Source: a virus. From it: a stretch of 57,600 bases of DNA. Every line of letters begins with the position of its first letter. Position 1 is the stretch's first letter. Both the position numbers and the translations under genes were made by a program. This document shows positions 32,148-57,379 of the stretch, in pieces. The notes under the pieces are model-generated. The model worked only from the letters and a program-made list of their open reading frames with translations. It ran no database searches and was not told the origin of the DNA. The stretch is taken from positions 1 to 57,600 of the IMG/VR virus record IMGVR_UViG_3300044490_000059. The stretch is one strand, 5' to 3'.

Positions 32148-32186
32148 GTGGTTTCGAGGTCCAGGCTTCACTCCCCTGGTAACCTC

Positions 32187-32227
32187 AACCCCGGTGCCAC
32201 TTCACCTTTCCTGGCACCGGGGTTTTT
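32187..32227 (+). terminator. Rho-independent terminator
   Basis: 13-base arms AACCCCGGTGCCA (32187-32199) and TGGCACCGGGGTT (32212-32224), then T-run to 32227. Ends the block of basic proteins. Confidence 0.75.
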
Positions 32228-32239
32228 CTTGCGCTGGTG

Positions 32240-32253
32240 CTTGAGCGCTCAAG
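32240..32253 (+). repeat. CTTGAGCGCTCAAG palindrome, copy 1
   Basis: Perfect 14-base palindrome. Same palindrome at 37491-37504, each followed by CGCG, then a TTCCTCC-x-TGGCC segment and a GGGCGGGAA... segment, making a 90-base composite element in two copies about 5.2 kb apart. Confidence 0.55.
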
Positions 32254-32487
32254 CGCGCAGCCGCGATCTCCGCTTTCCTCCTGGCCCTGGCGGCTAAAAA
32301 ACACCGGCCCATTCGGGGGGCGGGAAAATCCCACTGCCCGCCTCGAGGAAATTCCCCGCCGCCCACGTCAGGGAAATTCCCGGCCATCCGCGCCCTAGCT
32401 TGGTCACCGGGAAATTCCCGGTCATGACCACCCACGTCTACTGCCAAGATATTTTGCAGATTCTTCCTATTTCTGCCGATAGTAGTC

Positions 32488-32515
32488 TTGACGCGAGTAT
32501 TCCTGGCGATAGACT
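32488..32515 (+). promoter_or_regulatory. Sigma70-type promoter (AGTAC type)
   Basis: TTGACG (32488-32493), 16-base spacer containing CGAGTATTCC, TAGACT (32510-32515). Drives the DUF932 gene 45 bases downstream. Lies just after the GGGAAWTTCCC array, which could regulate it. Confidence 0.55.
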
Positions 32516-37387: not shown

Positions 37388-37490
37388 GGGTGCGGGTCCC
37401 ATCCCCTAGCGCCCCCCCTTACCCTTCCGCTTGAGCGCGCAGTCCAAGGCTGGGAGCGTTTCCTGGCACTCACCCGTAGGGGACCCTCCG

Positions 37491-37504
37491 CTTGAGCGCT
37501 CAAG
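37491..37504 (+). repeat. CTTGAGCGCTCAAG palindrome, copy 2
   Basis: Second copy of the palindrome, with a partial CTTGAGCGCGC site at 37430-37440. Lies upstream of the terminator at 37538-37567 and the two CGGCAAAATTGCCG sites. Confidence 0.55.
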
Positions 37505-37537
37505 CGCGTGGGCGTGTTTTCGCGTTCCTCCCTGGCC

Positions 37538-37567
37538 TTGGGGCTTTTTCGCCCCAAAATTTTTTTT
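37538..37567 (+). terminator. Rho-independent terminator
   Basis: TTGGGGC (37538-37544), loop TTTTTC, GCCCCAA (37551-37557), AA, then eight T (37560-37567). Ends the small-terminase transcript. Confidence 0.6.
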
Positions 37568-37703
37568 GCGCGGGGCGGGAATTTCCACGGACCAGCCCGT
37601 CCCGAGAAAACTACCTCTTTCGGGGGGGTATCCCCCGGTCGAGGGACCCCTAAGGTGGTACTGCCTACGTCCTACGCAAGGCTTGCCTAAAGTCTACTCA
37701 CTC

Positions 37704-37750
37704 CGGCAAAATTGCCGATCTACCGCCACCATATCGGCAAAATTGCCGAT
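37704..37750 (+). repeat. Pair of CGGCAAAATTGCCG operator-like sites
   Basis: Copy 1 37704-37717 and copy 2 37735-37748, the second extended to ATCGGCAA-AA-TTGCCGAT (37733-37750). Centre spacing 31 bases, close to three helical turns, which suits cooperative binding of a dimeric regulator. Confidence 0.5.
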
Positions 37751-38039
37751 AAATACCTAATTCCTACCTATCAGGTATGCTCACCAGATCGCACAGGATT
37801 GCGCAGGACGAGCGCGCGCCTCGGACGTACCTACACCCGCATCGGGCCGCGCGCGTCGATTCTGAGCCATTTAGATATTCATCGAAATACGCCTTAATCT
37901 CCCCCGAAAGTATGGGTCCTGGAAAGCGTCTCGGAACAGGCGTGGCGCTGGTCGAGTACAAAGGATTTTGTGGTCTTCCGGGCTGTCCGGGTCCCTTCCG
38001 GGAATTTCCCGGAATCTTGGGATTTTCCCTCAAGTCTAC

Positions 38040-38097
38040 TTGCAATCTACTTACACGCTATATATCCTGTGTTTTGTTGGCTTGCACGGTGCAAGCC
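38040..38097 (+). promoter_or_regulatory. Weak promoter with downstream operator palindrome
   Basis: TTGCAA (38040-38045), 17-base spacer, TATCCT (38063-38068). Palindrome GGCTTGCAC-G-GTGCAAGCC (38079-38097) lies between the predicted start and the ribosome site, ideal for a repressor. Confidence 0.4.
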
Positions 38098-38132: not shown

Positions 38133-38999
38133 ATGGCAACGAAGTGTGCGAGTCGCGGGTGCTTTGGCGTGGGGGTGACTGCTGCGGGCTTGTGCGAGGA
38201 TTGCTGGGAGCAATCTCCTGCATACCTCCAGCGCAGGTGCATGGACGACTATAGCGCTACGCCTCGTCTGTTGTCTCCTCGGAAAGTCCCTCATGCTGTT
38301 CTCAGCTACGAACTAGAGACCGAACCCCGTGAGGGTGCCAACTACCGCGAAGCGTTGGCGGTAGCCGTCCACGGGTGTGCGTGTCGGGATGGGAGCGTCT
38401 CGGGACCCGAGTACAAGATCTCGGGCACGTGCTGCGGTACTCACAGTGTCGGCTACAAGCTGGTGTCCGTCGCGGAGCGGGCCCGTGCGGTCGGCCTGCG
38501 GGTCAATCGCAAAACGGGTCTCCACGTTCACATGGATCGCCGGGAGACTTCTTGCGCTCGTCTGCGAGAGTTGGCGATCTGGTTGGTGCGCAGTCAAGAC
38601 CAGTTCGCGCGGGCCTGCCCGGCATCGCGCTGGGGCTCGCATTACGTGCAAGCCGTGTCGTCGCCTACTACGGTGATTGAGTATCTCCGTGAGGGCGTGC
38701 ACTGGGGTAGTGTCGGGCTGGACCAGCACTATCGGTGGTTCAACATCTCCCGTCGCCACACGACGGTGGAGTTCCGTTGGCACCCGGGCACCATGTCCGA
38801 GTGGAAGTTGCGCGGGTATCACGATTACATGACTCACCTTGCGCACTGGTTCCGCGCTGAAGACCAACGGGAATTTCCCGAGAGCATCTTGGACGTCTGC
38901 CCGAGAGACTCGTTGGGTCATGAGTACATGTCTGCCCGGATAAGTTCCGGGGGATCCCTGCGGCCCGGGCGTCGTTCACAGGAAACTGACGGGGAGTAA
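38133..38999 (+). CDS. Amidoligase (COOH-NH2 ligase, Amidoligase_2-like) with N-terminal zinc knuckle
   Basis: 288 aa from ATG 38133. Zinc knuckle CASRGCFG...LCEDCW at residues 5-24. Then YELETE with Glu60 and Glu62, DGSVSGPEYKI, GLHVHMDR and RRHTTVEFRWHPGT, the ordered motifs of the amidoligase_2 family, a glutamine-synthetase-related fold that joins an amine to a carboxylate using ATP. In a phage with a class II GATase next to it, the amine is probably ammonia from glutamine. Peptide or cell-wall modification is the likely target; the substrate is not known. Codon use differs from surrounding genes. Confidence 0.65.
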   Translation: MATKCASRGCFGVGVTAAGLCEDCWEQSPAYLQRRCMDDYSATPRLLSPRKVPHAVLSYELETEPREGANYREALAVAVHGCACRDGSVSGPEYKISGTCCGTHSVGYKLVSVAERARAVGLRVNRKTGLHVHMDRRETSCARLRELAIWLVRSQDQFARACPASRWGSHYVQAVSSPTTVIEYLREGVHWGSVGLDQHYRWFNISRRHTTVEFRWHPGTMSEWKLRGYHDYMTHLAHWFRAEDQREFPESILDVCPRDSLGHEYMSARISSGGSLRPGRRSQETDGE

Positions 39000-39002
39000 G
39001 CT

Positions 39003-39314
39003 ATGCTGCCTGATCTCGAACTAGCGCGGGAAGTTAAGGCACTGGGTCGGCTCATCCGGCCCGCATGGGTCGTCTCGCCGCGTGGCGTGGCGTTGGTGTT
39101 CGATCTGACGGGGCGGTCGGGCTGGGAGTGGTACGGCGACGATGTACGGGCGCTGCTGTCCGCATTGGGCCCGTTGCCGGTCTCCCTGGTGCGCGATGGT
39201 GGCAGGGTCTGCGGTCTGTCGGCCAAGTCTCTGCTCGGTGGTGATTTCGCCGGTCTGCGCTGGTTGTCTGCGCGGGAACCGGGGTGCGGTCTTTGGGTTT
39301 GTGTCGATCTGTAA
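39003..39314 (+). CDS. Unknown protein of the amidoligase cassette
   Basis: 103 aa. Compact alpha/beta pattern (AREVKALGRLIRPAWVVSPRGVALVF) with a central strand and a final CGLWVCVDL strand; two Cys. Lies between amidoligase and amidotransferase, 3 bases after the amidoligase stop. Shares the T/G-rich coding style of these genes. May act as specificity or carrier subunit; no family seen. Confidence 0.4.
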   Translation: MLPDLELAREVKALGRLIRPAWVVSPRGVALVFDLTGRSGWEWYGDDVRALLSALGPLPVSLVRDGGRVCGLSAKSLLGGDFAGLRWLSAREPGCGLWVCVDL

Positions 39315-39332
39315 CGGAAAGGTGGGTGTGGC

Positions 39333-40283
39333 ATGTGTCGTTTGGCGTTTCTTCCGGCGTCTCATGGGTTGTCTGCGAGCACGTTGGAATCGTTCTTTGC
39401 GGCGTTGGAAAGGTCCTGCGGTGGGCAGGGTATGGGGTTGAGTGCGCACGATCAGGAGGGCAACTGTGTTCACTTGTGCAAGGGCTTGCGGGTGAGTGCG
39501 AGGGGCAGCTCTAAGCGTGCGGTGGCGTGGGCTCGTGAGGGTTTGCACTGTCTGTTTCATACTCGGCTGGTCTCTGTCGGTCACCAGAGCGATGGGCAGT
39601 GTCATCCCTTTCACTGCTCTGGGCGCTTCACGGCGTGCACTGTGGCGCACAATGGAACGTGGCGCGAAGGCGAGATCGGCTCGCGCTTCATGCGTCTGCA
39701 AGGGTGGCAGGACTTGTCGGATAGCAAGCTGTTCGCGCTGCTGTATGCCGATTACGGGCCCTCCAGGATGCGGGAATTGCGTCTGTGGCCCGGTAGTGGC
39801 GTGTGGATGGTGATTACGGCGCTGAAAGGCAGATTCACGGTCTACCATGAGTCGGGAGACTTGAGGTATCACGCCGAGTCGGGCATCTACGCCTCGGAAT
39901 TTCCCGGCTCCTTCGGTGCTACGGTCAATGTCGGTCTCGGAAAGCATGGTCTCCTCAAGCCGCCTCGGTCGGTGCAAGCCGATCCCGTGTGGCGTTCTAC
40001 GGTCCAGGTGGGAACTTCCGCCTGGGCCACTGGCGTCTGCTGGGCTGCCGGGTGCAGCAAGCCTCGGATTGCGGGTGGCAGCTACTGTCAGGAGCATGCG
40101 AAGGAATCCGGCGGTCGGATGTGCATTCATCACCAGTGCACGCAACCCGCTGTGAGGTCGAATCCGGCGTACTGCGCGGCTCATGCGGTCGAGTGGTTGA
40201 AGTGCCGCGATGAGGACCTACCGCCCGAGTACAGGCTTCCCGAAGCCTACCGCGTGGCATGGTCTGATCGCACGGTGTACTAG
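39333..40283 (+). CDS. Class II glutamine amidotransferase with C-terminal zinc knuckles
   Basis: 316 aa. Starts MCRLAF with Cys2 as nucleophile after loss of Met; HTRLVSVGHQSDGQCHPF and AHNGTW (Asn107-Gly108) form the glutamine site and oxyanion hole of the GATase-II (Ntn) fold. C-terminal residues 230-295 contain two C-x4-C...YC-x2-H zinc knuckles (CWAAGCSKP, then CIHHQCTQP) similar to the amidoligase N-terminus. Likely supplies ammonia to the ligase. Ribosome site GGAAAGG. Same coding style as neighbours. Confidence 0.65.
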   Translation: MCRLAFLPASHGLSASTLESFFAALERSCGGQGMGLSAHDQEGNCVHLCKGLRVSARGSSKRAVAWAREGLHCLFHTRLVSVGHQSDGQCHPFHCSGRFTACTVAHNGTWREGEIGSRFMRLQGWQDLSDSKLFALLYADYGPSRMRELRLWPGSGVWMVITALKGRFTVYHESGDLRYHAESGIYASEFPGSFGATVNVGLGKHGLLKPPRSVQADPVWRSTVQVGTSAWATGVCWAAGCSKPRIAGGSYCQEHAKESGGRMCIHHQCTQPAVRSNPAYCAAHAVEWLKCRDEDLPPEYRLPEAYRVAWSDRTVY

Positions 40284-40313
40284 GTCTGTCTGTCTGGAAA
40301 GGTGAGGTGAGGT

Positions 40314-40556
40314 ATGAAATCCGTTGATGTCATGGTGGCGCGGGGCGACGAGTTGGAGTTCTCCGGGGATATTCCCGAGTGGTGCGTGCCTGAAGCGTGG
40401 TATGTGGTCATCCGGCGTGCGCCTAGTGGTGCGTGGCGCGTCTGTCCGCTGACGGCTGAATCGCGGGATGATGCGCTGCTGATGTGGCCTCTGGCGATTG
40501 CCTTGTTCCAGGTGATGGAACGGAAGGAACGCCGCGCGGCCGCCGCTTGGAACTAG
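40314..40556 (+). CDS. Small protein ending the amidoligase cassette
   Basis: 80 aa. Mixed alpha/beta, with WYVVIRRAPSGAWRVCPLTAE in the centre and a basic Arg/Ala end. Coding style and ribosome site (GGTGAGGTGAGGT) match its cassette neighbours, and a terminator follows. Function unknown. Confidence 0.4.
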   Translation: MKSVDVMVARGDELEFSGDIPEWCVPEAWYVVIRRAPSGAWRVCPLTAESRDDALLMWPLAIALFQVMERKERRAAAAWN

Positions 40557-40586
40557 GCCCGTCTGTCTGGCAAGGTGGTCCTAGCA

Positions 40587-40613
40587 GGCCGGAGTAACTT
40601 CCGGCCTTTCTTT
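40587..40613 (+). terminator. Rho-independent terminator
   Basis: GGCCGGA (40587-40593), loop GTAACT, TCCGGCC (40600-40606), then TTTCTTT. Closes the amidoligase cassette. Confidence 0.65.
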
Positions 40614-41095: not shown

Positions 41096-41123
41096 TTGAC
41101 ATCCAGTACCCTCTAAGTAGAAT
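41096..41123 (+). promoter_or_regulatory. Sigma70-type promoter (AGTAC type)
   Basis: TTGACA (41096-41101), 16-base spacer TCCAGTACCCTCTAAG, TAGAAT (41118-41123). Starts the 41158-41972 transcript, 35 bases from the ATG. Confidence 0.6.
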
Positions 41124-43786: not shown

Positions 43787-44746
43787 ATGAACTTGCGAGT
43801 CCCTTTCACTTGGACGGAAACTACCCTCGCTAGTCCGGGAGCCCCCGGTAACCTGCATTCCTATGTGGTCCCAGGAGTGCCTCATCCCCTGTACGTTCGT
43901 CCTGAGACTACGGACCTGTACTCCTTGGCCCAAGTCTTCCGGTCTCAGATCTATGCCCAGTTAGCTCCTGGCAGTTTGCTGGACCTGTACGCCCAGACTC
44001 CCCTCCCGGGACCTCTCCACCCGGAGAACCCTTCCCTGGCCCATGACTGGCATCCCTGGTGGAACTACGGTCCCTGCCAGTCTTCTGAGTACCTACATCA
44101 ACAAGGCGGCTGCCCCGACCAAGCCTTTTCCTTCCAGAGAATCCTGGACTGTGGGGCCTATGTGGGCTTCAGCGCCATCTACCTGTCCCTGTTACACCCC
44201 CAGGCCCAGATCCTGTGCGTTGAACCGGACCCGGACAACTTTGTGGTCCTGGAACGGAATATCTGGCCTTACCGGAACATTACCGCTGTCAGGGGGGCTG
44301 TCTCCCAGTACCTAGGACGTGGTTCCCTGACGCGAATCAACCAGCAGGGACTGAAGAAGGGGTTCTGGGCCACTCGCTTCCTGCCCGATGCTCCCGGGGC
44401 CTTCCTGGCTGGGCCTGGAGAGCGCCAACGCGATGTTTCCGGCCCTGTCCCCTCTGAGTCCCCCTTCCGGCCCATGGGTAGGCCCTTGGAGATGTACCTG
44501 GATGGGGAGCATTGGTCGGATGTGGACTTGGTGAAACTGGACATCGAGGGTTCCGAAGCGGAAGTCCTGGGTGACCCTCAAGCCGGGCTCTGGCTTTCCC
44601 GAACCAAGGCGCTGGTCTTGGAGCTACACGAAGACCTGCGCCCCGGGACAACAGAGATTGCCCGGGGAGTCCTAGCGCATGATTTCCACATCTTCCCTCA
44701 TCAGGAAGGTGCGCTGTACTTACGAAAAACCGTGTGGGAGGAGTGA
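43787..44746 (+). CDS. FkbM-type SAM methyltransferase
   Basis: 319 aa. ILDCGAYVGFSAIYLSLL (about residue 120) is motif I, CVEPDPDNF the adenosine-binding segment, and VDLVKLDIEGSEAEVLG (about 246) the catalytic region of FkbM methyltransferases. First 100 residues are an unrelated lead. Probably O-methylates sugars. The window has another FkbM domain at the end of 15485-17122. Leader with nested hairpin may regulate it. Confidence 0.65.
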   Translation: MNLRVPFTWTETTLASPGAPGNLHSYVVPGVPHPLYVRPETTDLYSLAQVFRSQIYAQLAPGSLLDLYAQTPLPGPLHPENPSLAHDWHPWWNYGPCQSSEYLHQQGGCPDQAFSFQRILDCGAYVGFSAIYLSLLHPQAQILCVEPDPDNFVVLERNIWPYRNITAVRGAVSQYLGRGSLTRINQQGLKKGFWATRFLPDAPGAFLAGPGERQRDVSGPVPSESPFRPMGRPLEMYLDGEHWSDVDLVKLDIEGSEAEVLGDPQAGLWLSRTKALVLELHEDLRPGTTEIARGVLAHDFHIFPHQEGALYLRKTVWEE

Positions 44747-46438: not shown

Positions 46439-49116
46439 GTAAGACCAGAAAGTTGCAGTTCGAGTGTTTGGAAGCACGTCTGGTTCTATCGGCTGATTTA
46501 TGGCCGAAAGGCGCGGGGCTGAAGGCTGATGTCTTCGTGGATGGCGGTGCTGAGTTGTCGAAGGTGGGGCTGGAAAAGCCCGCCAACCTTGCTGGACTAA
46601 CACGCGAGGTGTTCTTCACCCGTAGTTCCGCTACGACGCGCGCTGTTATCGGTGGAAATGCCAACGATACCAACGGTGCACTGCTGTACCCCGATGGTCA
46701 GCCGAGATACTCCGTGCTCTACGTCAACGGCGGGTCAGGCACTCACGCCAGCGCGATGGGAGCAGCGGGACGCCAAGCGGTTGAGGCTTTCCATGCGAAC
46801 GGTGGCAGCTACACCGGCTCGTGTGCCGGTGAATTTGTGGCATCACGTCGCATCCCGGCGCTGTGGGGTGGGCAGGTCGGCAATCCTGGGCGAACCGGAA
46901 AACAAACGGTGGTCTTCGACGAAGTAGACCATCCCCTCGTGCAATACCTCGTGGGCTGGAACAACGGCAGCAATGTCGTCACGGGCATTCCGCACTATTG
47001 GGGTCCGCGTAACAGCGAAAGCTACCGTCACCCGGACGGGACCGAGTTCCTGGGTACGATCACTCGCGGGTTGTACACCGGGACTGACTTCCTGATCGAG
47101 TATCAGAAGTCGGCTGAGTCGGGAGGGACAGTCTTGAGTCCATCCCACCCGGAGTACAACCGAAACGCCGGTAATACGGCGTTGATGGCGGCGATCTTAA
47201 AGCGGGCCGACGATCTGTCGAAGGTGGAACCGGACATTAAAGGCACGCTGACCACGGATCAGTCCGTGGTCATGAGTGACCCGACGCAGAGAGTTGGTGA
47301 CGGTCAATATCACAGATACCTGGTCGAGGTGGCAGAGGGGACGAGCGTGCTGCACGTCGGGATCACCGGGCTCACGGGCAACGCGGATCTGTTTGTGCAG
47401 CGGGACGGCGTGGCACATGCCGGGGCGTACCTAGCGAAATCCACGGAGACCGGCGTGGCTGATGACACGATCACGCTCCTGAATCCACAGCCCGGTGTGT
47501 ACGAGATCAGCGTCTTCGGGGCGCATACGATCCTCAACGGTGCAGCTTACACTTTGTCGGTGCAGGCTCAGGCAGTGGATGCGGTGTTGGCAGAAGGCGA
47601 GTTTACTCGTGATCTCCCGGCGACTGCTTGGCCGAAAGGAGTGGGCTTGCGCGCCGACATCTTCGTGGACGGCGGGGACTATACCTCCAAGAAGTCTCTG
47701 GCAGCGCCCGCCAATCTCGCGGGCCTGACACGCGAAGTGTATTTCTCCTATAGTGCCGCTACGACGCGCCGCCTGATCGGCGGAAATCCTGACGATCTCA
47801 ATGGGGTGCTGCTGTTCCCCGATGGACAACCCCGGTTTAGCAGCATCTTTGTCAACGGCAAAAACTCGCCCCTCCACTCCCGGGCGCTGGGTGAAACCGG
47901 ACGCCAAGCGATTGCCGATTTCTATTCAGCGGGTGGCAGCTACACTGGAAGCTGTGGCGGCGAGTTCCTGGCCGCCTACTACATCCCGTCGATCTGGGGC
48001 GGGGAGGTCTATCGACACAGCACAACCGGACGGCAAACAGTGACGTTCGACGAGGATCATCCTATCGTGGACTATCTGAAGGCGTGGAATGGCGACAGCA
48101 ACATCGTCTCGAACATTCCGTACTACTGGGGACCAGTGAATCGTGAGTCCTTCCGCCATCCCGATGGAACACAGTTTCTCGGAACTGTGACGGGCGGGCT
48201 GTATAAAGGCGCTGACTTTCTGGTCGAGTACCAGAGAGACAGCGAATCGGGGGTTGCGGTTCTCAGTCCAGCACATCCTGAATACAACCGCAACGCCAGT
48301 AATACGGCGTTGATGGCTGCAATTCTGAAGCGAGCTAACGATTTGTCTCGCGTGACGCCGGACATTAAGGGGGTGCTGACACCCGATCAATCCGTGGTCA
48401 TGGATGGCCCGACACAGAAAATCGGTGATGGTCAGTACCATAGATACACGGTTGAGGTTCCAGCGGGGGTGAGTACCTTGCACGTTGGTCTGAGTGGTTT
48501 GACAGCTAACGTCGATCTCTTTCTCCAGAGAGAAGGTCCAGCACACACTGGCAGCTACCTAGTGAAGTCTGCGGTCACCGGTACTGCTGACGATACAATC
48601 ACGATTCCCAGCCCGGAACCCGGCAGGTACGAGATCAGTGTGTATGGGAACCATGCGGTGTTGAATGGTGCCGCCTACACGCTGTCGGTCAAGGCGCAGG
48701 CTGTGGACATGGTGTTAGCGGAAGCAGAACTGGGAGGTTGGAACATGGGCGACGAATTGAAAGTTAGTGATCCGTACCGGCCACAGGGAAACCCTGAAGT
48801 ACGACTGGAGATCAAGGCTACCAATGGTGACGTGGTAAAGATCGACGGTCCGTACAACTTTGGGTATAGCCCTGATGCCAAGTTGGAAATCAAGGGCACT
48901 GAAGACCCGGAAGCTGCTAACTTGCGGTTGACCAAAGAGGGCGATGAGGTCCACGAGTTGTTGGCGGCAGCGTTGCGGCTGTTGAAGAATCGTGGCTACT
49001 ACTGGGGTTGGGACATGGCGTTGCAGCAGTACGGCTACTTCAGCCAGGGTCAGTATGTGGGCCCCGAGTTGATGGATCTGGTGAAACTGGAGGTTCGACA
49101 ATATGCCCAGCAATGA
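46435..49116 (+). CDS. Exported duplicated GATase-1-like/PPC protein with planctomycete sorting motif
   Basis: 893 aa. N-terminus (FECLEARLVLS at residues 9-19) is the LE-x-LE-x-R...LLS-type motif of planctomycete exported proteins. Two tandem units of about 377 residues follow: a BPL_N-like class I GATase fold with GGSYTGSC-AG (Cys130) and GGSYTGSC-GG (Cys507), then a PPC-like beta domain (DGQYHRYLVEVAEGTS). A 110-residue C-terminal part is separate. Both Cys are kept. Not a usual phage protein; it may alter the host surface or act on peptides. Base use matches its neighbours more than head genes. Confidence 0.55.
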   Translation: MSKTRKLQFECLEARLVLSADLWPKGAGLKADVFVDGGAELSKVGLEKPANLAGLTREVFFTRSSATTRAVIGGNANDTNGALLYPDGQPRYSVLYVNGGSGTHASAMGAAGRQAVEAFHANGGSYTGSCAGEFVASRRIPALWGGQVGNPGRTGKQTVVFDEVDHPLVQYLVGWNNGSNVVTGIPHYWGPRNSESYRHPDGTEFLGTITRGLYTGTDFLIEYQKSAESGGTVLSPSHPEYNRNAGNTALMAAILKRADDLSKVEPDIKGTLTTDQSVVMSDPTQRVGDGQYHRYLVEVAEGTSVLHVGITGLTGNADLFVQRDGVAHAGAYLAKSTETGVADDTITLLNPQPGVYEISVFGAHTILNGAAYTLSVQAQAVDAVLAEGEFTRDLPATAWPKGVGLRADIFVDGGDYTSKKSLAAPANLAGLTREVYFSYSAATTRRLIGGNPDDLNGVLLFPDGQPRFSSIFVNGKNSPLHSRALGETGRQAIADFYSAGGSYTGSCGGEFLAAYYIPSIWGGEVYRHSTTGRQTVTFDEDHPIVDYLKAWNGDSNIVSNIPYYWGPVNRESFRHPDGTQFLGTVTGGLYKGADFLVEYQRDSESGVAVLSPAHPEYNRNASNTALMAAILKRANDLSRVTPDIKGVLTPDQSVVMDGPTQKIGDGQYHRYTVEVPAGVSTLHVGLSGLTANVDLFLQREGPAHTGSYLVKSAVTGTADDTITIPSPEPGRYEISVYGNHAVLNGAAYTLSVKAQAVDMVLAEAELGGWNMGDELKVSDPYRPQGNPEVRLEIKATNGDVVKIDGPYNFGYSPDAKLEIKGTEDPEAANLRLTKEGDEVHELLAAALRLLKNRGYYWGWDMALQQYGYFSQGQYVGPELMDLVKLEVRQYAQQ

Positions 49117-49315
49117 GGCTTGGATTGCTACGTTGCCCCGTGTCATAGCTATCGCCACTCGTAGTGGCTATCGCTGGGACTGTCCGCATTGTGGAGGTTA
49201 CCACCTGCGCCTGGGGTTGGGCCCACGACGGAAGCTGGGTGCTGCCCGCTGCAAGGCGACTGGCAGACGATTACATCGCTGGGTCAACGTCGTGGGGATT
49301 ATCGAGAGGAGGTAA
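49103..49315 (+). CDS. Small zinc-ribbon protein
   Basis: 70 aa overlapping the end of the exported protein. CPHCGGYHLRLG and a later single Cys within GAARCKATGRRLHRWV; basic. The arrangement resembles a small DNA- or RNA-binding zinc ribbon. The N-terminal end (MPSNEAWIATLPRVIA) is helical. Unknown function. Confidence 0.4.
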   Translation: MPSNEAWIATLPRVIAIATRSGYRWDCPHCGGYHLRLGLGPRRKLGAARCKATGRRLHRWVNVVGIIERR

Positions 49316-49318
49316 AAC

Positions 49319-49561
49319 ATGGCTAAGCGCAAGCGGAAGTCGGATTCCACTACCCGTGTGGTGCTTATCGAAATTGGTCTGCCCATGACCATGGAGAAAC
49401 TCCTGGAGGTAGTGGAGACTTTCAGGAGCTGGGTCTTCCAGGAACTTCTGGCTTTGCAGGAGGACTGTGATTGTGAGCATTGCCCCAATCCCTGCACTCC
49501 AGAGAAGCGGGCTACCCAGTTTCGTCACCGGGTTTACCGGGAGGAGGAACAACAGAACTAG
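49319..49561 (+). CDS. Small Cys-containing protein
   Basis: 80 aa. Strong GAGGAGG ribosome site before ATG. Basic start (MAKRKRKSD), then a hydrophobic helix and CDCEHCPNPCTPEKRA. Four close Cys suggest a metal site. A CTCCAGAGAAG repeat is in its coding sequence near 49498. No family. Confidence 0.4.
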   Translation: MAKRKRKSDSTTRVVLIEIGLPMTMEKLLEVVETFRSWVFQELLALQEDCDCEHCPNPCTPEKRATQFRHRVYREEEQQN

Positions 49562-49635
49562 GTCTTGCCGTGGAGGAGCTAGTCTTGGAAACTACTCCTA
49601 GTCAATGTTCGTTCGTGACCAGCAAGGAGACTGTT

Positions 49636-49935
49636 ATGCCGCGCAAGAAAAACCTACCTACCCTGGATCGTGGAACTTCCCTGGCCGTCCCGGAGGAGTT
49701 GACCCCTGAGGAAGTCTTCAAGGCTGCCTTGATCGGAGCCACCATTGCCGCCTTCCAACCGGGGAGCAGTCTGCATCAGAACTCCCGCAAGGACCGGCTG
49801 ATGGAGACCTATGTGGAGAATGTCCTCTCCTTCTCGCACTTGCTCTCCCAACGGGCTGCGCAGTTGTTGAAGCAACCGCTGGCTCCCCACCGGTTGCCGG
49901 AAGAGGAGGAGGAAGATCTTCCTGAGTCAGCGTGA
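49636..49935 (+). CDS. Small acidic hypothetical protein
   Basis: 99 aa from ATG 49636. Helical with LTPEEVFKAALIGATIAAFQPG, a second helix (METYVENVLSFSHLLSQRAAQLL) and a Glu-rich tail. No catalytic motif. The upstream gap has the ribosome-site-like AAGGAGA. It precedes the glycosyltransferase gene. Function not known. Confidence 0.35.
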   Translation: MPRKKNLPTLDRGTSLAVPEELTPEEVFKAALIGATIAAFQPGSSLHQNSRKDRLMETYVENVLSFSHLLSQRAAQLLKQPLAPHRLPEEEEEDLPESA

Positions 49936-49965
49936 CCCTTCCGTTTCGTTCCCTGGAGTGAACCC

Positions 49966-50850
49966 ATGAAACGCTTGTTGCTGTCCCTACCCTGTTACGG
50001 AGGAGGCTTGCGGCATGAGGTGGCAGCCGCCTTCTTCACGAATAGCCTGAACGGCTACACCTCAACCCTGGACCCGGAGGGAGTCCAGGTGGATCGCCGG
50101 ATCTTCGAGTGTTCCCTCCTGGCCCGAGGTTTCAATCAGGCTTGGTGTACGGCGCTATCTGCCGAGTACGACTACTTCGTGATGCTTCATGCGGACATCG
50201 TGCCTCAGCCCGGTTGGCTGGAGAAGCTGATCGAGCTGATCGAAACCACCTCGTACCGCATGATCTCGGCGGTAGTCCCGCTGAAGTCCCCGCTGGGGAT
50301 TACCTCCACGGGAGTGGGCTTCCTGGATAACTGGTACGGGATCCGTAAGCGGTTGACCATGCAGGAGGTCTTCCGGCTCCCGGAGACTTTCGACATCACC
50401 CACCTGTATGCAGCCGGGATTTTACCGCCTGCCGAAAACCCTGCCGTGGAGGATGTGCTGCTGGTCAATACCGGCTGTTTCATTGCCAATCTGACTGCCT
50501 CTTACGCCTTCCATACCCTGGATGGAGACGGGGCTCTGATCCATCACTTCCGCATTGAGGATCGGGTGCTGGTACGTTCCGCCCAGGAAGTCTGGAAGGA
50601 AACCCGTCTGCGGGGGGTTCCCATGGAGACTATTGCCAACTCTCAGGACTCGCGGCAGCAATACCTCGTGGAGACGATCCCTGAAGACTGGGGATTTTCC
50701 CGCACTATGGCAGCCTATAACATCCCCTATGCTGCCACTCGAGCTGTCCGTGTGAATCACTTGGGTACCACTTCTTTCCACAACTTCGCTCCTTGGGGAG
50801 TGGAGCGGGAGTTTGACCCCGTGCCCAATCAACTGGTGGTGGCTAAATAA
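49966..50850 (+). CDS. GT-A-type glycosyltransferase
   Basis: 294 aa. N-terminal LLLSLPCYGGGL and CTALSAEYDYFVMLHADIVPQPGWLEKLI give the strand-helix order of GT-A enzymes, with HAD (D in DxD-like position) for metal and nucleotide sugar. Later part has TGCFIANLTASYAF and helices. Third sugar-modifying enzyme of the window. Codes for GFSRTMAAYN from a GGATTTTCCCGCACTAT copy (50692-50708). The stop is followed by AATAATTCCCGCACTAA (50846-50862). Confidence 0.5.
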   Translation: MKRLLLSLPCYGGGLRHEVAAAFFTNSLNGYTSTLDPEGVQVDRRIFECSLLARGFNQAWCTALSAEYDYFVMLHADIVPQPGWLEKLIELIETTSYRMISAVVPLKSPLGITSTGVGFLDNWYGIRKRLTMQEVFRLPETFDITHLYAAGILPPAENPAVEDVLLVNTGCFIANLTASYAFHTLDGDGALIHHFRIEDRVLVRSAQEVWKETRLRGVPMETIANSQDSRQQYLVETIPEDWGFSRTMAAYNIPYAATRAVRVNHLGTTSFHNFAPWGVEREFDPVPNQLVVAK

Positions 50851-50872
50851 TTCCCGCACTAAAGAGGGTGCT

Positions 50873-52450
50873 ATGCCGTCCCTGCCCACCCTGAAATGGA
50901 CGGGCTTCATACCGCACCAGCCCACCGTCAAACAGCTGGCCTTCCTGCTCCTGCCGCATGGGGAGGCGCTGTTTGGCGGTGCTGCGGGTGGTGGTAAGAG
51001 TGATGCCCTCTTAATGGCTGCCCTGCAATACGTGGACATTCCCGGCTATGCGAGTATAATCTTCCGTAAGACGCTCTCAGACCTCAAACAACCCGGAGCC
51101 CTGATCGACCGCTCCCACCAATGGCTCTACTCCACAGACGCTAAATGGGTCGGTGGTGAGCACGCTTGGTATTTCCCCACCGTGGATGAAAACGGTCACG
51201 AATCCCACCCCTCCAAGCTGGTCTTTGGGTATGTGGGAGAACAACGGGGGGATGCCTCCAATGTCCTACGCTATCAGGGTATCGAGGTCCAATACGTCGC
51301 CTGGGACGAACTCACGCAACACGACGAGAGTGACTACCGCTACCTCTTCTCGCGCCGCCGTCGTCTCGCCTGCCCAGTGCATCGCGTTGATGCGCAGGGT
51401 AGTCCCGTCTACGTCCCGGACTGTCCTACTTGTGAAAGATACCGACGTTTACCCTTGCGGGTGCGGGCCGCCACTAATCCAGGAGGTCCAGGTGCCGTCT
51501 GGGTGAAGCGCCGCTTCCGCATCGGACCCCACCTAGACCCCCGAGAAGCTGATCGGCTCGGAGTCCAGGTCCGCTGGGTGGGCAAGCATCCCCGGCGTCC
51601 CTTCATCCCCTCCTTCCTGGAAGACAATCCCTTCCTGGACCAGACCGCCTACGATGACGGCCTGCGCCAACTGGATCCCGTCACCCGCGAACAGCTCCGA
51701 CGCGGCAACTGGGGCATCTCCCCTGACTCCCGTTTCAAGCGCGCCTGGGCCCGCTACTTCTCCCGCCGAGGGGATTACATCGTCCTGGGCCTGAATGGCT
51801 GTGGTCCCGAGCATCACCTGTCTACCCTCCAGAAAATCTTCTGCACCGTGGACCCGGCTGGTTCCGTCAAGGAATCTCCGGGGGCTCCGCAGATCTGGCG
51901 GCAGGCTGCCAGCTACACCGTGATCTCCGTTTGGGGATTGACCAACGACTTCAATCTCCTCTGGTTGGACATGATCCGCTTTCGGCGGGAAATTCCCGAC
52001 ATCGTAGACCAGCTCCGCGCCACGTATCGCAAGTGGCGTCCCGCCTACTTCACCATCGAAGCCAATGGTCTGGGCCGGGGAATCTACCAGTACGCCGTCC
52101 GTTCCGGCCTGCCCGTCCGCGCTGTCTCCAAAACCACGGACAAGCTCATCAATGCCACCGATGCCATGGTGCGCATGAAGGAGGGTAAGGTCTGGCTGCC
52201 GGAGGAGGCTTCCTGGCTGGAAACCTGCGAGGACGAGTTGTTCACCTGGACCGGCCATCCCCATGCCGAGTCGGACGACATCATCGACACTCTCTCCGAC
52301 GCGGCTCGAGAAGTTTCCTGGGAGGCAGCCGGTAACGAACAGGTTACCTCCCTGGACCTGGACTTGGCCCTGGCTCCCCAGGACATACCTACTGTCCTGC
52401 CCCACCATCTCACCGGTTTACGGCAGGGCTACGATCCCTACTCGTTCTGA
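50873..52450 (+). CDS. terL: Terminase large subunit
   Basis: 525 aa from ATG 50873. ATPase: Walker A GGAAGGGKS (residues 35-43), Walker B VQYVAWDE, coupling TNPGG. RNase H-type nuclease: Asp327 in CTVDPAGS and a second acidic cluster HAESDDIID near 462. Packages DNA. Full length for Terminase_6-type. Preceded by a U-rich element (50846-50862) and ribosome site GAGGGTG; it is at the head of a head-gene block. Confidence 0.75.
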   Translation: MPSLPTLKWTGFIPHQPTVKQLAFLLLPHGEALFGGAAGGGKSDALLMAALQYVDIPGYASIIFRKTLSDLKQPGALIDRSHQWLYSTDAKWVGGEHAWYFPTVDENGHESHPSKLVFGYVGEQRGDASNVLRYQGIEVQYVAWDELTQHDESDYRYLFSRRRRLACPVHRVDAQGSPVYVPDCPTCERYRRLPLRVRAATNPGGPGAVWVKRRFRIGPHLDPREADRLGVQVRWVGKHPRRPFIPSFLEDNPFLDQTAYDDGLRQLDPVTREQLRRGNWGISPDSRFKRAWARYFSRRGDYIVLGLNGCGPEHHLSTLQKIFCTVDPAGSVKESPGAPQIWRQAASYTVISVWGLTNDFNLLWLDMIRFRREIPDIVDQLRATYRKWRPAYFTIEANGLGRGIYQYAVRSGLPVRAVSKTTDKLINATDAMVRMKEGKVWLPEEASWLETCEDELFTWTGHPHAESDDIIDTLSDAAREVSWEAAGNEQVTSLDLDLALAPQDIPTVLPHHLTGLRQGYDPYSF

Positions 52451-52467
52451 GGGGTTCCGGTCCAAAG

Positions 52468-52496
52468 TTGACCCCCGCCTCGGAATGCGGTACTCT
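52468..52496 (+). promoter_or_regulatory. Possible sigma70-type promoter for capsid genes
   Basis: TTGACC (52468-52473), 17-base spacer, TACTCT (52491-52496). Weak -10. It is placed just after the large terminase stop and before the decoration gene. Confidence 0.4.
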
Positions 52497-52536
52497 ATGG
52501 GCTGATCCCCCTTCCTGCCCTGTGAGGAGCATTCTC

Positions 52537-52971
52537 ATGGCTGACTTGAGTATCACCGCTGCCAATGTGGTGAAGGGTTCCGACGCCAATTTCGAGACCG
52601 GCACTTCCGGTGATACCCTGACAGCGGGCATGTCCGTTTACAAGGACACTGCCGATAGCAACAAGTGGAAGAAAGCCAGCGCCGCCTCCACGGCAGCTCT
52701 CGCCGGTTCAGGAGGCATTGGCATCGCCCTGCACGCTGCCTCTTCCGGCCAACCCATCGTCGTGCAGACGGGCGGCACCATCACCATCGGAGCCACCATT
52801 GCCGTGGGTCAGGTGTACGTGGTTTCTCCTACCGCAGCCGGTGGGATCGCACCCTTCACCGACCTGAACACCAACAACTACGTGACCTACCTGGGCTACG
52901 GCTCCACGACTGCCATCCTCAAGATGCTGTCGATTGCCACCGGCCTCCAGGCTGGCACCGATTTGGCCTGA
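52537..52971 (+). CDS. Head decoration protein-like (small capsid protein)
   Basis: 144 aa from ATG 52537 (GAGGAG site). Repeated Ala/Thr/Gly beta strands (TAANVVKGSDANFETGTSG, then AAGGIAPFTDLN and YLGYGSTTAILKM) resemble small decoration proteins of DUF2190 type. Lies between terminase and protease, the common position for such a gene. U-rich element follows at 52980-52996. Confidence 0.5.
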   Translation: MADLSITAANVVKGSDANFETGTSGDTLTAGMSVYKDTADSNKWKKASAASTAALAGSGGIGIALHAASSGQPIVVQTGGTITIGATIAVGQVYVVSPTAAGGIAPFTDLNTNNYVTYLGYGSTTAILKMLSIATGLQAGTDLA

Positions 52972-53012
52972 TCCGCTGGAATTATTCCCGCACTAACGGC
53001 AGGTAAGCAGTC

Positions 53013-54533
53013 ATGGCGAAGTTCAAGAAGCGGATCGTGCTGGCGGGGATGTATGAGATTCCCCAGCCGGATGGCAGCTATCGGCGGGAGTTCATCGACC
53101 CGGAGCGCCTGGAACACTGGGCGGATACCGCCCGCACCATGCTCCAGCGCGGCTTCCGCATCCCGGCTCCCTGGAACCACGATGGAGCTGCTCTGCCCGT
53201 CCAGGTAGGTGTAGACGGTACACTCTCCAGTGCCCTGGACAACGGGGGCTGGTGGACCGGCTTTACTGTGGAGGAGGAGCTTGACGGCACGCCTGCCTTG
53301 TACGGCGTACTGGAAATTCCCGGAGAGATTGCCGATCCCCACTCCCTCGCCAGCAAGATCGGGCAGACCATCAAGGACACCAGCGTCTATGTGCGGCCCG
53401 AATTTCGGGATTCCAGCGGGCAAGCCTGGACGGATGCCCTGATGCACGTTGCCCTGGTGACGCATCCCATCGAGCACAATCAGCCCAACTTCACCCCTCT
53501 GGACACCGCCACCGGCCAGCGTTCCGCCACGGATCCCGGACTGCTCCCCGCAGGTTCCCTGGCTCTGTGCATGAACTACTGCCGCTACCCGGTGCGGATG
53601 GCCCTCCCGGCAGCCACAGGTTCCGTTTCCTCCAGAAAAACCGGAGGTGCCGGAGGTCCGGGAATGCCGGGTACCCCTGGCAAGGGAAAATCCCCGGCTG
53701 CCAGCTCTGCCGACAAGTCCCTCCAAAGCAGCTTGGGACAGGAAGGCGGGGACGCCCAGATCAACAGCTTCCAGGAATTGTTGCTTCGATTACGAGAAGT
53801 TGCTAAGATTGCACTTCCAGAGGACACCTCACCGGAGAACTTGATTGAGCGACTGCGTGTGGCGCTCTTGCAGAAAGCAGCTTCCGAGGAGGAAGAGGAT
53901 CAAGGTTCGATAACTACTCCACCGGAGGGGGCGACGGAACAACCGGCCCCGGTACTCATGAGCTTCAACCCCAAGCAAATCGCCAGTATCCTCGCCTCGA
54001 AGGTTGTCAACCCGGACACCGGACAGCCCTTCACGGAGGCTGAACTCAAAGCTGTGGGCAGCACTCCCGCTCCCGCCCCCGTCACGCCTCCCGCAGACGA
54101 AGTGGTGATGTCACATCCCCGCTATCAGGAGCTGGAGAAGTCGGCGGGGTTCCTGGCGGCACGTTTGAACGAACAGGCGCTGGCGGGGCTCCGCACGCGC
54201 ATCAAGGGGCTCATCTCTGGTCCCAAGGCCAAGATCACGCAGGAGTACGCCCAGAAGCACCTGGAGCCGCATCTGGCGGGCTTCAAGATGTCCTTCAATG
54301 CGGATGGTACGGTGCGCCCGCATCAGGTGGAGGTCATTCTGGATGCTCTGGAGGCCGTACCCACGGTGCTCGGTCCCTCGCGTTTGCTGCCGGGCACGGC
54401 CATGAGTCTGCCCGCTGCTCCGCAGGGAGTGGGGGCGGCTGTGGAACCCCTGCCTCCGGGATTTGAGGGTTCCCAGGTTTCCGAACAACAGGCGGCGGAA
54501 ATCGCCAATGAGTTTCTGAAAAACACGGTTTGA
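53013..54533 (+). CDS. Prohead protease fused to scaffold-like region
   Basis: 506 aa. Residues 1-165 look like a Mu gpI-type or S49-like prohead protease: AGMYEIPQPDGSYRREFID, PWNHDGAALPVQ, then YVRPEFRDSSGQAWTDALMHVALVTHP. After 190, a Gly/Pro linker containing a dispersed repeat (53626-53656) leads into a helical, Glu/Lys/Ala-rich region (250-500) like an internal scaffold. The fusion of protease and scaffold is common. Catalytic residues cannot be assigned by eye. Confidence 0.6.
   Translation: MAKFKKRIVLAGMYEIPQPDGSYRREFIDPERLEHWADTARTMLQRGFRIPAPWNHDGAALPVQVGVDGTLSSALDNGGWWTGFTVEEELDGTPALYGVLEIPGEIADPHSLASKIGQTIKDTSVYVRPEFRDSSGQAWTDALMHVALVTHPIEHNQPNFTPLDTATGQRSATDPGLLPAGSLALCMNYCRYPVRMALPAATGSVSSRKTGGAGGPGMPGTPGKGKSPAASSADKSLQSSLGQEGGDAQINSFQELLLRLREVAKIALPEDTSPENLIERLRVALLQKAASEEEEDQGSITTPPEGATEQPAPVLMSFNPKQIASILASKVVNPDTGQPFTEAELKAVGSTPAPAPVTPPADEVVMSHPRYQELEKSAGFLAARLNEQALAGLRTRIKGLISGPKAKITQEYAQKHLEPHLAGFKMSFNADGTVRPHQVEVILDALEAVPTVLGPSRLLPGTAMSLPAAPQGVGAAVEPLPPGFEGSQVSEQQAAEIANEFLKNTV
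53626..53656 (+). repeat. Dispersed hairpin repeat, copy in protease/scaffold gene
   Basis: TTTCCTCCAGAAAAACCGGA then GGTGCCGGAGG. Reads SSRKTGGAGG. The Gly/Pro-rich linker around it may have been built by insertion of the repeat. Confidence 0.45.
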
Positions 54534-54599
54534 GGAGCTACCGGTGCTCCCGGTTTCAGCGCACAAGTAGACCACTCCAGGAACGATTAGGAGCCAGCC

Positions 54600-55424
54600 A
54601 TGAGTTTCGAGTTCACCGGGGCGTTTGCCGTCCCTTCGATCCAGACGTACCTGGAGACCTACGAGAATCAGTTCTGGTTTGATCGGTACGAGAACCAGAT
54701 CTGGACGGGAGTGATTATCGACGGCGCTTCGGTCGATACCGGCAACACCAACTATACGGACATTCTCCGTCCGGGCCTCCTGTTGGGCCGGGTTACCTCT
54801 ACCGAGAAGTTGAAGCAGTGGAGCCCCACGGCGACCGATGGGACACAGGAGGTTTTCGGCATCCTGGGCCTGGGCTCCAAGATGCACCGGCTGGGCACCG
54901 ACACTGACCGTTGGCTGGGTCAGGTGATGGTGGCGGGCTATGTGAAGGCCGACCGGCTGTTGATTCCGGGAAATTCCTCGCTGGGAATCGCCAGCGATGC
55001 CAACGAGTGGCTGATCCGGTCCCAGATGTTCCGGCGCTTCGTCTTCTCCGACATGCTGTTCGGTCTGGGTCATGCCTTCGGTGGCTGGCGGAAGATTACT
55101 GCCAAGACCGCTGACTACACGGTGGTGGATGCGGACAACAACACCTTCTTCACCACCGAAGGTGCCACGGGGGCGGTCATCTTCACACTGCCCACAACCC
55201 CCAAGCTGGGGTTGCGGTACATGTTCTACAACTCCGAAGACCAGGACATGACCGTGGCGGCAGCTGCCAACACTGCCATCACCTATAACGATGTGACTGC
55301 CACCAGCGTCAAGGTGGGCACTGCCAATCAGAAGGCGGGCAGTGGTTTTGAGGCGATTGGTGACGGGACCAAGTGGATCATCGTGTGTCACTGTGCGCCC
55401 GCCGCGACTGTGACTGTGACCTGA
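54600..55424 (+). CDS. Head decoration protein with fibre-like C-terminal domain
   Basis: 274 aa. First 120 residues look like a lambda D-type head decoration protein (TDILRPGLLLGRVTSTEKL, then VMVAGYVKADRLL). Residues 175-274 form a separate beta-rich, Thr/Ala-rich domain (YTVVDADNNTFFTTEGATGAVIF, then GSGFEAIGDGTKWIIV) like those on fibre tips. Sits between protease and major capsid genes, as expected. The C-terminal domain could bind host or stabilise the shell. Confidence 0.55.
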   Translation: MSFEFTGAFAVPSIQTYLETYENQFWFDRYENQIWTGVIIDGASVDTGNTNYTDILRPGLLLGRVTSTEKLKQWSPTATDGTQEVFGILGLGSKMHRLGTDTDRWLGQVMVAGYVKADRLLIPGNSSLGIASDANEWLIRSQMFRRFVFSDMLFGLGHAFGGWRKITAKTADYTVVDADNNTFFTTEGATGAVIFTLPTTPKLGLRYMFYNSEDQDMTVAAAANTAITYNDVTATSVKVGTANQKAGSGFEAIGDGTKWIIVCHCAPAATVTVT

Positions 55425-55494
55425 TTCAAACTCCGAGGGTTGTCCCGAATCGTAAGCCGGGAACTCCTTAGACCTGATGTAGAAGGATCAAGAA

Positions 55495-56688
55495 ATGGCA
55501 GGCGAGATCACGATTCAACAACTCTTCCAGACCCCCACGATCACGAAGGTCATTTCGCAGATCGGGTCTCCCCTTTCCTTGCTCCAACGCTTCTATGGCG
55601 TGGGTCCCGGCAAAGGGGTGACACAGAGCATGTCCGGTCGCTATGTCGGCTGGGACCTGTTCAATGCCACGCGCAGTGTCGCCAAGGGCCGTCCTCCGGC
55701 TACCGGCCCGGCGACCGTCAGCCGCAAGCCCATTGGGCACAATATGGCCCAGGTCTATCGGATGCACGAGAAGACGCTCATCAATCAGGAGGAGGTCTTC
55801 CGTACCCGTCCGTTGGGAGCTGCCATCGGCACCGTGGACTTGCGCGGTCAGCAGTATGTGCGTCGGCAACTGGAGTTCCTGACCCAGCGCTTTACCAACG
55901 CCCGGGAGTTCATGGTCTCCCGCATGTTCCGGGGCGGCTGGAGTGTGAGCATCGAGGGTGAGGATTGGGTGCCGGGCGAGATGTCTCAATCTGGCTATGC
56001 CTTCAACGTGGACATGCAACTGCCGTCCACGCACAAGACCCAGCTGACTGCTGGCACCAGTGCCAACATCATCGAGGATTCCTGGGATGATCCCAGCGCC
56101 GATGTGATCGGCCAGCTGTTGACCCTGGACATGGCTGCCGAGCGGGAGAACGGTCGTCCCATCCGGCACATCTGGATCAACGGCAACACGTTCAAGTACC
56201 TGTTGGACAACACCGGCTTACAGTCCACGGGCGGCACGGCCTTCCGCATCTTCGAGTCCTTGCGAGCCCGTACAGCCACTGCCGAACTGAATGGGGAACG
56301 CTTCCCGGACACGGGCTTCGATGTGGTGTTCCGGGCGCTGCCGTTGCACACCTTCCACATTTACAACGGCGGCTTGACCCTGCCTGCTGCCGGGACTTCG
56401 GAGGTGGGTGAGGACCTGACCACGCAGCTCTCTGCCACCTACTTCAGCTTGTTCCTCCCGGACAACTACGCCATCCTGACCCCCGATCCCGGAAACTGGA
56501 TGGGCTGGATCGAGGGCAGCGAGATCGTGGCGGAAAACCTGCTGGACGAAGGCCGGGAAGCCTTTGGGTTCACCAGCTGGACAACCCGGGTGATTGACCC
56601 CCCGGGTTGGGAGCTGAAGGCCCTGGACAACGGGTTGCCGGTGCTGTACGAACCCCGCGCGATCTACTATGGCACCGTGATCTTCTGA
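55495..56688 (+). CDS. Major capsid protein (phage E-type)
   Basis: 397 aa. Typical features of the gpE-type capsid family: N-terminal ITIQQLFQTPTITKVISQI, MHEKTLINQEEVF, QLEFLTQRFTNAREFMVSRM (E-loop region) and HIWINGNTFKYLL. Length fits HK97-fold subunits. Preceded by decoration genes and followed by U-rich element plus terminator (56690-56751), so it is the last gene of the head block. Confidence 0.7.
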   Translation: MAGEITIQQLFQTPTITKVISQIGSPLSLLQRFYGVGPGKGVTQSMSGRYVGWDLFNATRSVAKGRPPATGPATVSRKPIGHNMAQVYRMHEKTLINQEEVFRTRPLGAAIGTVDLRGQQYVRRQLEFLTQRFTNAREFMVSRMFRGGWSVSIEGEDWVPGEMSQSGYAFNVDMQLPSTHKTQLTAGTSANIIEDSWDDPSADVIGQLLTLDMAAERENGRPIRHIWINGNTFKYLLDNTGLQSTGGTAFRIFESLRARTATAELNGERFPDTGFDVVFRALPLHTFHIYNGGLTLPAAGTSEVGEDLTTQLSATYFSLFLPDNYAILTPDPGNWMGWIEGSEIVAENLLDEGREAFGFTSWTTRVIDPPGWELKALDNGLPVLYEPRAIYYGTVIF

Positions 56689-56723
56689 GAATTATTCCCA
56701 CACTATCTGTGGGGGAGACTAAG

Positions 56724-56751
56724 ACCCGGGGAGTCTTCCCCGGGTTTTTTT
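56724..56751 (+). terminator. Rho-independent terminator
   Basis: ACCCGGGGA (56724-56732), loop GTCT, TCCCCGGGT (56737-56745), then T-run to 56751. Placed directly after the AATTATTCCCACACTAT motif (56690-56706) and the capsid stop. Confidence 0.75.
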
Positions 56752-56779
56752 ATGGAATTTTGCCCCTAGTGAGGATCTC

Positions 56780-57370
56780 ATGAACCCTAGACGAGCCGAC
56801 GCCTCTCGACACGACGCCGACCCGCCCCAAATGGAGAACGTAGCTGTGTTCAAGGGCACGGTGGATTGGGTGCTGCAAAAGGTTGACAAGCACGGAGTCG
56901 CTGTTGTGGGCTTGGTGGTCATTACGTCGATCTTGTGGTTCGGCTTCGTTGTGCCGCAGAACGCGGATCGCACGGCGGTGCGCACCGAACGTGAAACGCT
57001 GATGAAGTCGATGGTCACCACCAACGAGAACTTGAACAAGAATAATGATCGGATAGCTGAAGTCTTGGCCGAACTCAAATCGGCCTTTGATCGCTACAGT
57101 CAAGACACGCGGGATTCCGTGGAGGCTGGCTTTGAGGTAGTGCAGAGTAACGCCAACATCCTGGTGGGGGTGCAGCGTACTCATGAGCTTCAGACGCAGC
57201 AGTTAAATGAACTGAAAGATCTCAGCAAGACTACTAATACACTGATGGAGAACGCTTCGGTCATGATGGCCCCAGCCGGTCCTGATCGCAAGGAGATGAT
57301 CGCCCTCCTCAAAGAACTGACTGAGGAGAGTAAGCGTAAGTCTAGGAGTGGGTCGTCAGCCAATCCGTGA
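56780..57370 (+). CDS. Single-pass membrane protein with coiled coil
   Basis: 196 aa. One transmembrane helix (GVAVVGLVVITSILWFGFVV, about residues 39-58) after a basic N-terminus, then a long coiled coil (TNENLNKNNDRIAEVLAELK, TQQLNELKDLSKTTNTLMEN) ending in a Lys/Arg/Ser tail. Could be a spanin or adaptor, or a lysis or entry factor. Codon use is more even than in the capsid genes, as at the left end of the window. GAGGATCT ribosome site. Confidence 0.5.
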   Translation: MNPRRADASRHDADPPQMENVAVFKGTVDWVLQKVDKHGVAVVGLVVITSILWFGFVVPQNADRTAVRTERETLMKSMVTTNENLNKNNDRIAEVLAELKSAFDRYSQDTRDSVEAGFEVVQSNANILVGVQRTHELQTQQLNELKDLSKTTNTLMENASVMMAPAGPDRKEMIALLKELTEESKRKSRSGSSANP

Positions 57371-57379
57371 GGCAGCAGC

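Follow-up and report, generated by a model that had tools for sequence, protein, structure and literature searches.

The four genes considered here lie within a 57,600-nucleotide stretch of viral DNA, positions 1 to 57,600 of the IMG/VR record IMGVR_UViG_3300044490_000059, which we refer to as the window. An IMG/VR contig (L010) is 100% identical to the window over positions 47363-57600 and extends 1471 bp past its end into sequence that does not match the window start, so that the window probably does not represent a closed genome. The genes occupy positions 38133-40556, all on the + strand, and the features discussed below are as follows.

37489, no strand assigned: 18-bp palindrome CGCTTGAGCGCTCAAGCG, with a second site at 32238 (one mismatch) before a DUF932 gene
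37538-37557, + strand: terminator-like hairpin followed by a T run, the upstream boundary of the unit
37702-37750, no strand assigned: operator-like palindrome CGGCAAAATTGCCG(AT), two copies 31 bp apart; 3 matches including its own reverse strand, 0.01 expected
37996 (TTCCGGGAATTTCCCGGAA) and 37999-38011 (CGGGAATTTCCCG), no strand assigned: palindrome, one of 30 dispersed near-copies
38079-38097, no strand assigned: perfect, operator-like palindrome GGCTTGCACGGTGCAAGCC, that is, GGCTTGCAC-G-GTGCAAGCC, unique in the window and about 35 bp 5' of the ligase start
38133-38999, + strand: ORF1, ligase of the Amidoligase_2 family (PF12224), 288 aa, by profile match and conserved residues
38145-38204, + strand: N-terminal Cys4 zinc-like module of the ligase, CX4C-X10-CX2C (CASRGC...CEDC), by motif match
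39003-39314, + strand: ORF2, 103 aa, an orphan between ligase and GATase, by codon profile and position
39333-40283, + strand: ORF3, class II glutamine amidotransferase (GATase), 316 aa, with Cys2, Arg78, Asn107-Gly108 and Asp130
40038-40184, + strand: C-terminal tandem Cys3His zinc-like modules of the GATase (CWAAGC...CQEH and CIHHQC...CAAH), by motif match
40314-40556, + strand: ORF4, 80 aa, an orphan ORF call without a family match
40586-40607, + strand: intrinsic-terminator-like hairpin with a 9-bp stem, followed by TTTCTTT, which closes the unit

The two enzymes are encoded on the same strand, and the 333-nt gap between them is occupied by the 103-aa ORF. A preliminary description of the DNA had presented the region as a self-contained amidoligase and amidotransferase cassette with a promoter, an operator-like palindrome and a terminator of its own, and with a codon use different from that of the flanking genes. 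The four ORFs are present in the ORF list where it had placed them, the terminator is there with its 9-bp stem at 40586-40607 and the TTTCTTT behind it, terminator-like sites enclose the unit on both sides (37538-37557 and 40586-40607), and the enzyme pair can be said to sit in a self-contained transcription unit. The four genes also have a common third-position composition (A 6-8%, G 34-42%, C 27-36%), from which the next downstream genes clearly differ (C 53-57%, G 14-18%). This homogeneity is matched by 2% of random gene quartets; the contrast in codon use thus holds against the downstream neighbors, but the unit is not an outlier phage-wide. The promoter fared less well, as no site 5' of the ligase passed a scan for sigma70-like promoters; the one strong sigma70-like match, at 41096, is that of the following gene.

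A 26-bp direct repeat (CTAGG..GTCTGTCTGG.AAGGTG) is found at 40279-40304 and 40552-40577, 3' of the stop codons of the GATase and the 80-aa ORF. The 80-aa ORF has its ribosome-binding site in the first copy, and the second is directly followed by the terminator, an arrangement that would fit the loss of another gene.

Two divergent enzymes and their zinc-like modules

The ligase matches Amidoligase_2 (PF12224) in a profile search with an E-value of 1e-5 and 26 bits, over a cut-off of 22 bits, and PHROG 2443, "amidoligase enzyme", with an E-value of 2.7e-9. It keeps 12 of the 12 residues that are invariant in an alignment of eight phage amidoligases (E60, E62, D86, S88, E93, H131, H133, R166, Y200, N204, E213 and R215), and with them the invariant motifs of the family, namely ExE, D.S, HxH, R, YxxxN and ExR. 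The identification as an Amidoligase_2-like protein in the preliminary description is borne out both by this score and by the invariance of Glu60/Glu62, His131/His133 and Glu213/Arg215.

ORF3 is, judging from its sequence, a very divergent class II GATase. Its match to the GATase_6 profile (E-value 8e-5, 23 bits) falls just under the 27-bit cut-off, and a six-frame GATase_6 scan of the whole record missed it. Residues 1-168 align end to end with the GATases of the Marvin type, to be described below, with an hhalign probability of 88% and an E-value of 2.8e-6; against a wider GATase profile the probability is 79%, compared with at most 0.5% for shuffled controls. The GATase of phage Marvin (gp106), like ORF3, scores below the Pfam cut-offs. 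ORF3 retains Cys2, HTR (76-78), CHPF (90-93), HNG (106-108) and Ser129-Asp130, so the residues that define class II, among them the Cys2 and Asn107-Gly108 named in the preliminary description, are intact, and the profile comparison agrees with the assignment.

Both enzymes are only about 25% identical to every relative, and searches with exact peptide patterns found no close relatives of the ligase, the GATase or the 103-aa protein in IMG/VR. PDB sequence searches gave no matches, and thus neither an Amidoligase_2 structure nor a relative of the ligase. The single-sequence structure models, that of the ligase with a pLDDT of 36, are too poor for use.

What is new at this locus is that, at the level of primary structure, the same Cys4/Cys3His module is carried once by the ligase and twice by the GATase. 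The pattern C-X4-C-X10/11-C-X2-[HC] is absent from the other annotated genes of the window. In residue shuffles the observed number of modules was reached in 0.2% of cases for the ligase and in 0 of 20,000 for the GATase. The preliminary description had overlooked this common module. Since a phage HNH protein (L009) has the same tandem motif, the module is probably a metal-binding phage module. The resemblance to the HNH protein would fit nucleic-acid binding equally well, a point against the reading preferred below.

The pair in other genomes

The ligase-GATase pair as such is an already known phage module. Profiles for both enzymes, applied to 96 phage and viral ligase loci, found a GATase in 30, and in 29 of these 30 the two genes are adjacent and on the same strand, with the GATase usually just downstream; an IMG/VR scan with a ligase alignment from four phages had contributed 80 loci. 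The other 66 loci have no GATase within the fetched flank, and ammonia supplied by a GATase is therefore not universal in the amidoligase family. Among bacterial loci, collected with an alignment of zinc-type ligases, 74 of 80 have a GATase, which mostly adjoins the ligase. The linkage of amidoligases to class II GATases that the preliminary description had stated is borne out. Across 104 pairs the distance matrices of ligase and GATase correlate with an r of 0.96, a value that no permutation reaches and that is explained in part by shared descent.

Several named phages illustrate the arrangement. Ottawa gp65/gp66 (Arthrobacter), StenR_269 (Stenotrophomonas) and MEP402 gp06/gp07 (Methylophilales) encode, on one strand, an amidoligase and directly behind it a class II GATase; unlike the window GATase, theirs are without a zinc tail. 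StenR_269 has additional ligase-type genes nearby, and Ottawa gp64 resembles a gamma-glutamylcyclotransferase by eye. Further adjacent pairs occur in podovirus ctgrD200 and Acinetobacter phage vB_AciJM_313, and in the LUZ24-like phage UFV-P2 an HNH endonuclease gene lies between amidoligase and GATase (PMC3890496). The "peptidoglycan modification cassette" of RIO-1, PSA-HP1, phiEco32, LUZ24, tf and UFV-P2 resembles the window in combining an Amidoligase_2 protein with a class II GATase. It comprises about seven genes, lies amid early genes and also encodes a second COOH-NH2 ligase, an ATP-grasp enzyme and a gamma-glutamylcyclotransferase. A search of the record, which may be incomplete, for PF14395 (COOH-NH2_lig), PF06094 (gamma-glutamylcyclotransferase) and PF14398 (the YheCD type, one of several ATP-grasp families) gave no match.

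A close counterpart in layout is gp105/gp106 of Mycobacterium phage Marvin, where an Amidoligase_2 protein with one or more N-terminal zinc ribbons is adjacent to a GATase with a C-terminal zinc ribbon. The same layout is seen in Marvin-like phage records, in the viral contigs L013 and L095, and in the chromosomes of Mycolicibacterium, Nocardia, Actinokineospora and related actinobacterial genomes. The Marvin-type GATases share H[ST]R....G......CHPF and HNG with ORF3, the CHPF being present in Marvin and L095. By its motifs the window pair follows the Marvin-type layout, the ligase having a module at its N-terminus and the GATase at its C-terminus, but the type of module differs: the Marvin-type ribbons are CX2C and multiple, whereas those of the window are CX4C, one Cys4 in the ligase and two Cys3His in the GATase. 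Identity is only about 23-25%, and, unlike the window, the Marvin-type loci lack counterparts of the 103-aa and 80-aa proteins. The ligase of the Marvin-like mycobacteriophages, gp105 in Marvin, carries the label "glutamine amidotransferase domain protein" in several deposited records (L005 2560-3921 and others related to it); from the sequences, gp105 is the amidoligase partner, and gp106 is the true GATase.

A GATase adjoins the ligase in 84 of 89 loci with ribbon-bearing ligases, compared with 18 of 72 without ribbons. In the phage and viral loci alone the figures are 5 of 6 and 16 of 70, with a p-value of 0.005 that, like the others of this comparison, is indicative only, as the loci are related and come from two different sampling queries. 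The ribbon-bearing ligases of Ruminococcus flavefaciens adjoin GATases as well, which by the same test are without a ribbon tail. The R. flavefaciens genomes (L113-L181) have several zinc-ribbon ligase-GATase loci each, commonly near DUF960, relaxase, resolvase and phage-type integrase genes, and from the relaxase, resolvase and integrase neighbors these pairs are taken to be cargo of mobile elements. Two Nocardia loci (L106 and L108) have three zinc-ribbon amidoligase-GATase pairs in tandem.

The control region and the two small ORFs

The 745-bp gap 5' of the ligase contains several perfect palindromes, and an Rfam search of this control region gave no family. The operator-like palindrome claimed in the preliminary description does exist: it is GGCTTGCAC-G-GTGCAAGCC at 38079-38097, and it is unique in the window. 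The control region is, however, not specific to the cassette. Sites that match GGGAAWTTCCC with up to one mismatch number 30 in the window, compared with 1.3 expected and a largest count of 3 in shuffles (e.g., at 3933, 13222, 19243, 32371, 32409, 38000, 38869 and 51987); they are dispersed, often inside genes, and have unconserved flanks. A related contig (L011) has one such site. GGGAAWTTCCC has the look of a stoperator-like element or of another protein-binding site scattered over this phage, and since it is phage-wide, these sites of the control region are a feature of the whole phage. The palindrome CGCTTGAGCGCTCAAGCG is likewise found before the DUF932 gene.

The intergenic regions 32150-32490, before the DUF932 gene, and 37430-37720, before the cassette, share CGCTTGAGCGCTCAAGCG and similar GGGCGGGAAWWTCC stretches; from this resemblance they are possibly duplicated control regions.

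The 103-aa and 80-aa ORFs had been put forward as a potential part of an undescribed system. Their status as genes is supported by the third-position profile, which matches that of both enzymes; for the 103-aa ORF the support consists of the codon profile and the position. Profile searches gave no family match for either, and neither phage records nor the full set of ORFs from the phage and viral loci contained a relative; for the 103-aa protein, IMG/VR also gave none. A likeness of the 103-aa protein to Marvin gp107, noted by eye, was dropped because phmmer gives no support for it. These searches lend no support to the proposal that the two small proteins belong to a conserved system. When the four genes are looked for together, the two-enzyme core recurs, but the four-gene order was found nowhere else, and the small ORFs may be lineage-specific accessories.

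What the enzyme pair may do

Amidoligases of this family are glutamine-synthetase-like, amide-forming enzymes, and class II GATases are glutamine amidotransferases. From the known chemistry of both families, the simplest reading is that the GATase would supply ammonia with which the ligase amidates a carboxylate. Starting from the two homologies, the conserved catalytic residues, the common module, and the adjacency and recurrence of the pair, we infer a reaction, zinc binding, a docking step, a class of substrate and a benefit along the following lines. The GATase would hydrolyze glutamine by means of its N-terminal Cys and release ammonia; the ligase, presumably ATP-dependent and with a glutamine-synthetase fold, would take up the ammonia, or a small amine, and amidate a carboxylate; and the matching zinc modules would dock ligase and GATase on one target or on each other. 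Because the modules would bring both enzymes to the same place, a macromolecule, such as a host protein or a nascent peptide, seems a likelier substrate than a free metabolite. This would give the phage or mobile element an advantage in conflicts with the host or with competing phages. To this reading as a whole, an accessory cassette that amidates a macromolecular target, we give a probability of about 0.45. A search of the literature found no measured reaction for Amidoligase_2.

The family is widespread in phages, and the role proposed for it rests on gene neighborhoods. Published proposals for phages have the pair modify the cell wall or peptides and exclude superinfecting phages (PMC10580990, PMC5498523, PMC11318856). 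The functional idea of the preliminary description, in which the pair forms an amide bond on a peptide, cell-wall or protein substrate to help infection or defense evasion, is essentially this published hypothesis, which came earlier. In its peptidoglycan form the pair would alter peptide side chains of the host wall so that competing phages fail to adsorb, as suggested for phiEco32, RIO-1, LUZ24-like and OM43 phages with cassettes of Amidoligase_2 and GATase (PMC5498523, PMC10580990, PMC11318856, PMC3890496). We hold this to be rather unlikely for the window, since the partner families PF14395, PF06094 and PF14398 are unmatched there, with the reservation that the record may be incomplete, and since zinc modules on cytosolic enzymes would sooner be expected with a macromolecular partner than with a wall precursor. 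The two enzymes might instead write and erase one modification, the ligase attaching an amine or amino acid that the Ntn-fold GATase removes as an amidase, with no supply of ammonia. The listing of a phage GATase under degradation genes and of amidoligases under synthesis genes (PMC5498523) agrees with such a division, and the adjacency data fit it and ammonia supply equally, but ORF3 keeps the glutamine-handling residues Arg78, Asn107-Gly108 and Asp130, which favor glutamine as its substrate and make an eraser quite unlikely.

A role in small-molecule metabolism, where the pair makes an amide metabolite or feeds nitrogen into a host pool, has been proposed for a planctomycete phage that has an amidoligase, a GATase, a glutathione synthase and a gamma-glutamylcyclotransferase (PMC10945688). 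Here it appears very unlikely: no further gene of an amino-acid or cofactor pathway was found among the scanned window proteins, the zinc modules on both enzymes are left unexplained, and the Ruminococcus pairs are multicopy per genome on mobile elements, unlike a metabolic pathway. That the pair is degenerate or inactive cargo might be suspected from a GATase that scores under the Pfam cut-off and escapes the GATase_6 scan of the record. The catalytic residues of both enzymes are, however, all kept at about 25% identity to their relatives, which indicates selection on the pair and renders inactivity highly improbable.

An ammonia-fed amidation of a macromolecule thus remains our preferred reading. 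It could be carried further, in that ligase-GATase pairs with matching zinc modules may constitute a class of their own among the effectors of phages and mobile elements, one that amidates a host macromolecule, with the modules as interchangeable parts for target recognition and the 103-aa and 80-aa proteins as adaptors or regulators; this extension we regard as doubtful. Zinc-armed pairs in mycobacteriophages, in actinobacterial chromosomes and in Ruminococcus mobile elements (where the ligase only is zinc-armed) point to conflict-related cargo. It should be said that the gain from this window alone is modest, because the pair was already known; the analysis adds that the two enzymes have zinc-like modules in common and that zinc-armed pairs recur, and it downgrades both orphans and the claim of operators specific to the cassette. 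The common modules offer a concrete handle, as they suggest that both enzymes meet on one target, for which the modules could serve as bait.

As for the phage that carries the cassette, the best relatives of the window terminase are about 26-39% identical and scattered across unrelated hosts. The window also contains a putative mannosyltransferase-FkbM methyltransferase fusion, a second FkbM methyltransferase and a weak glycosyltransferase-2 match, at 15485-17122, 43787-44746 and 49966-50850.
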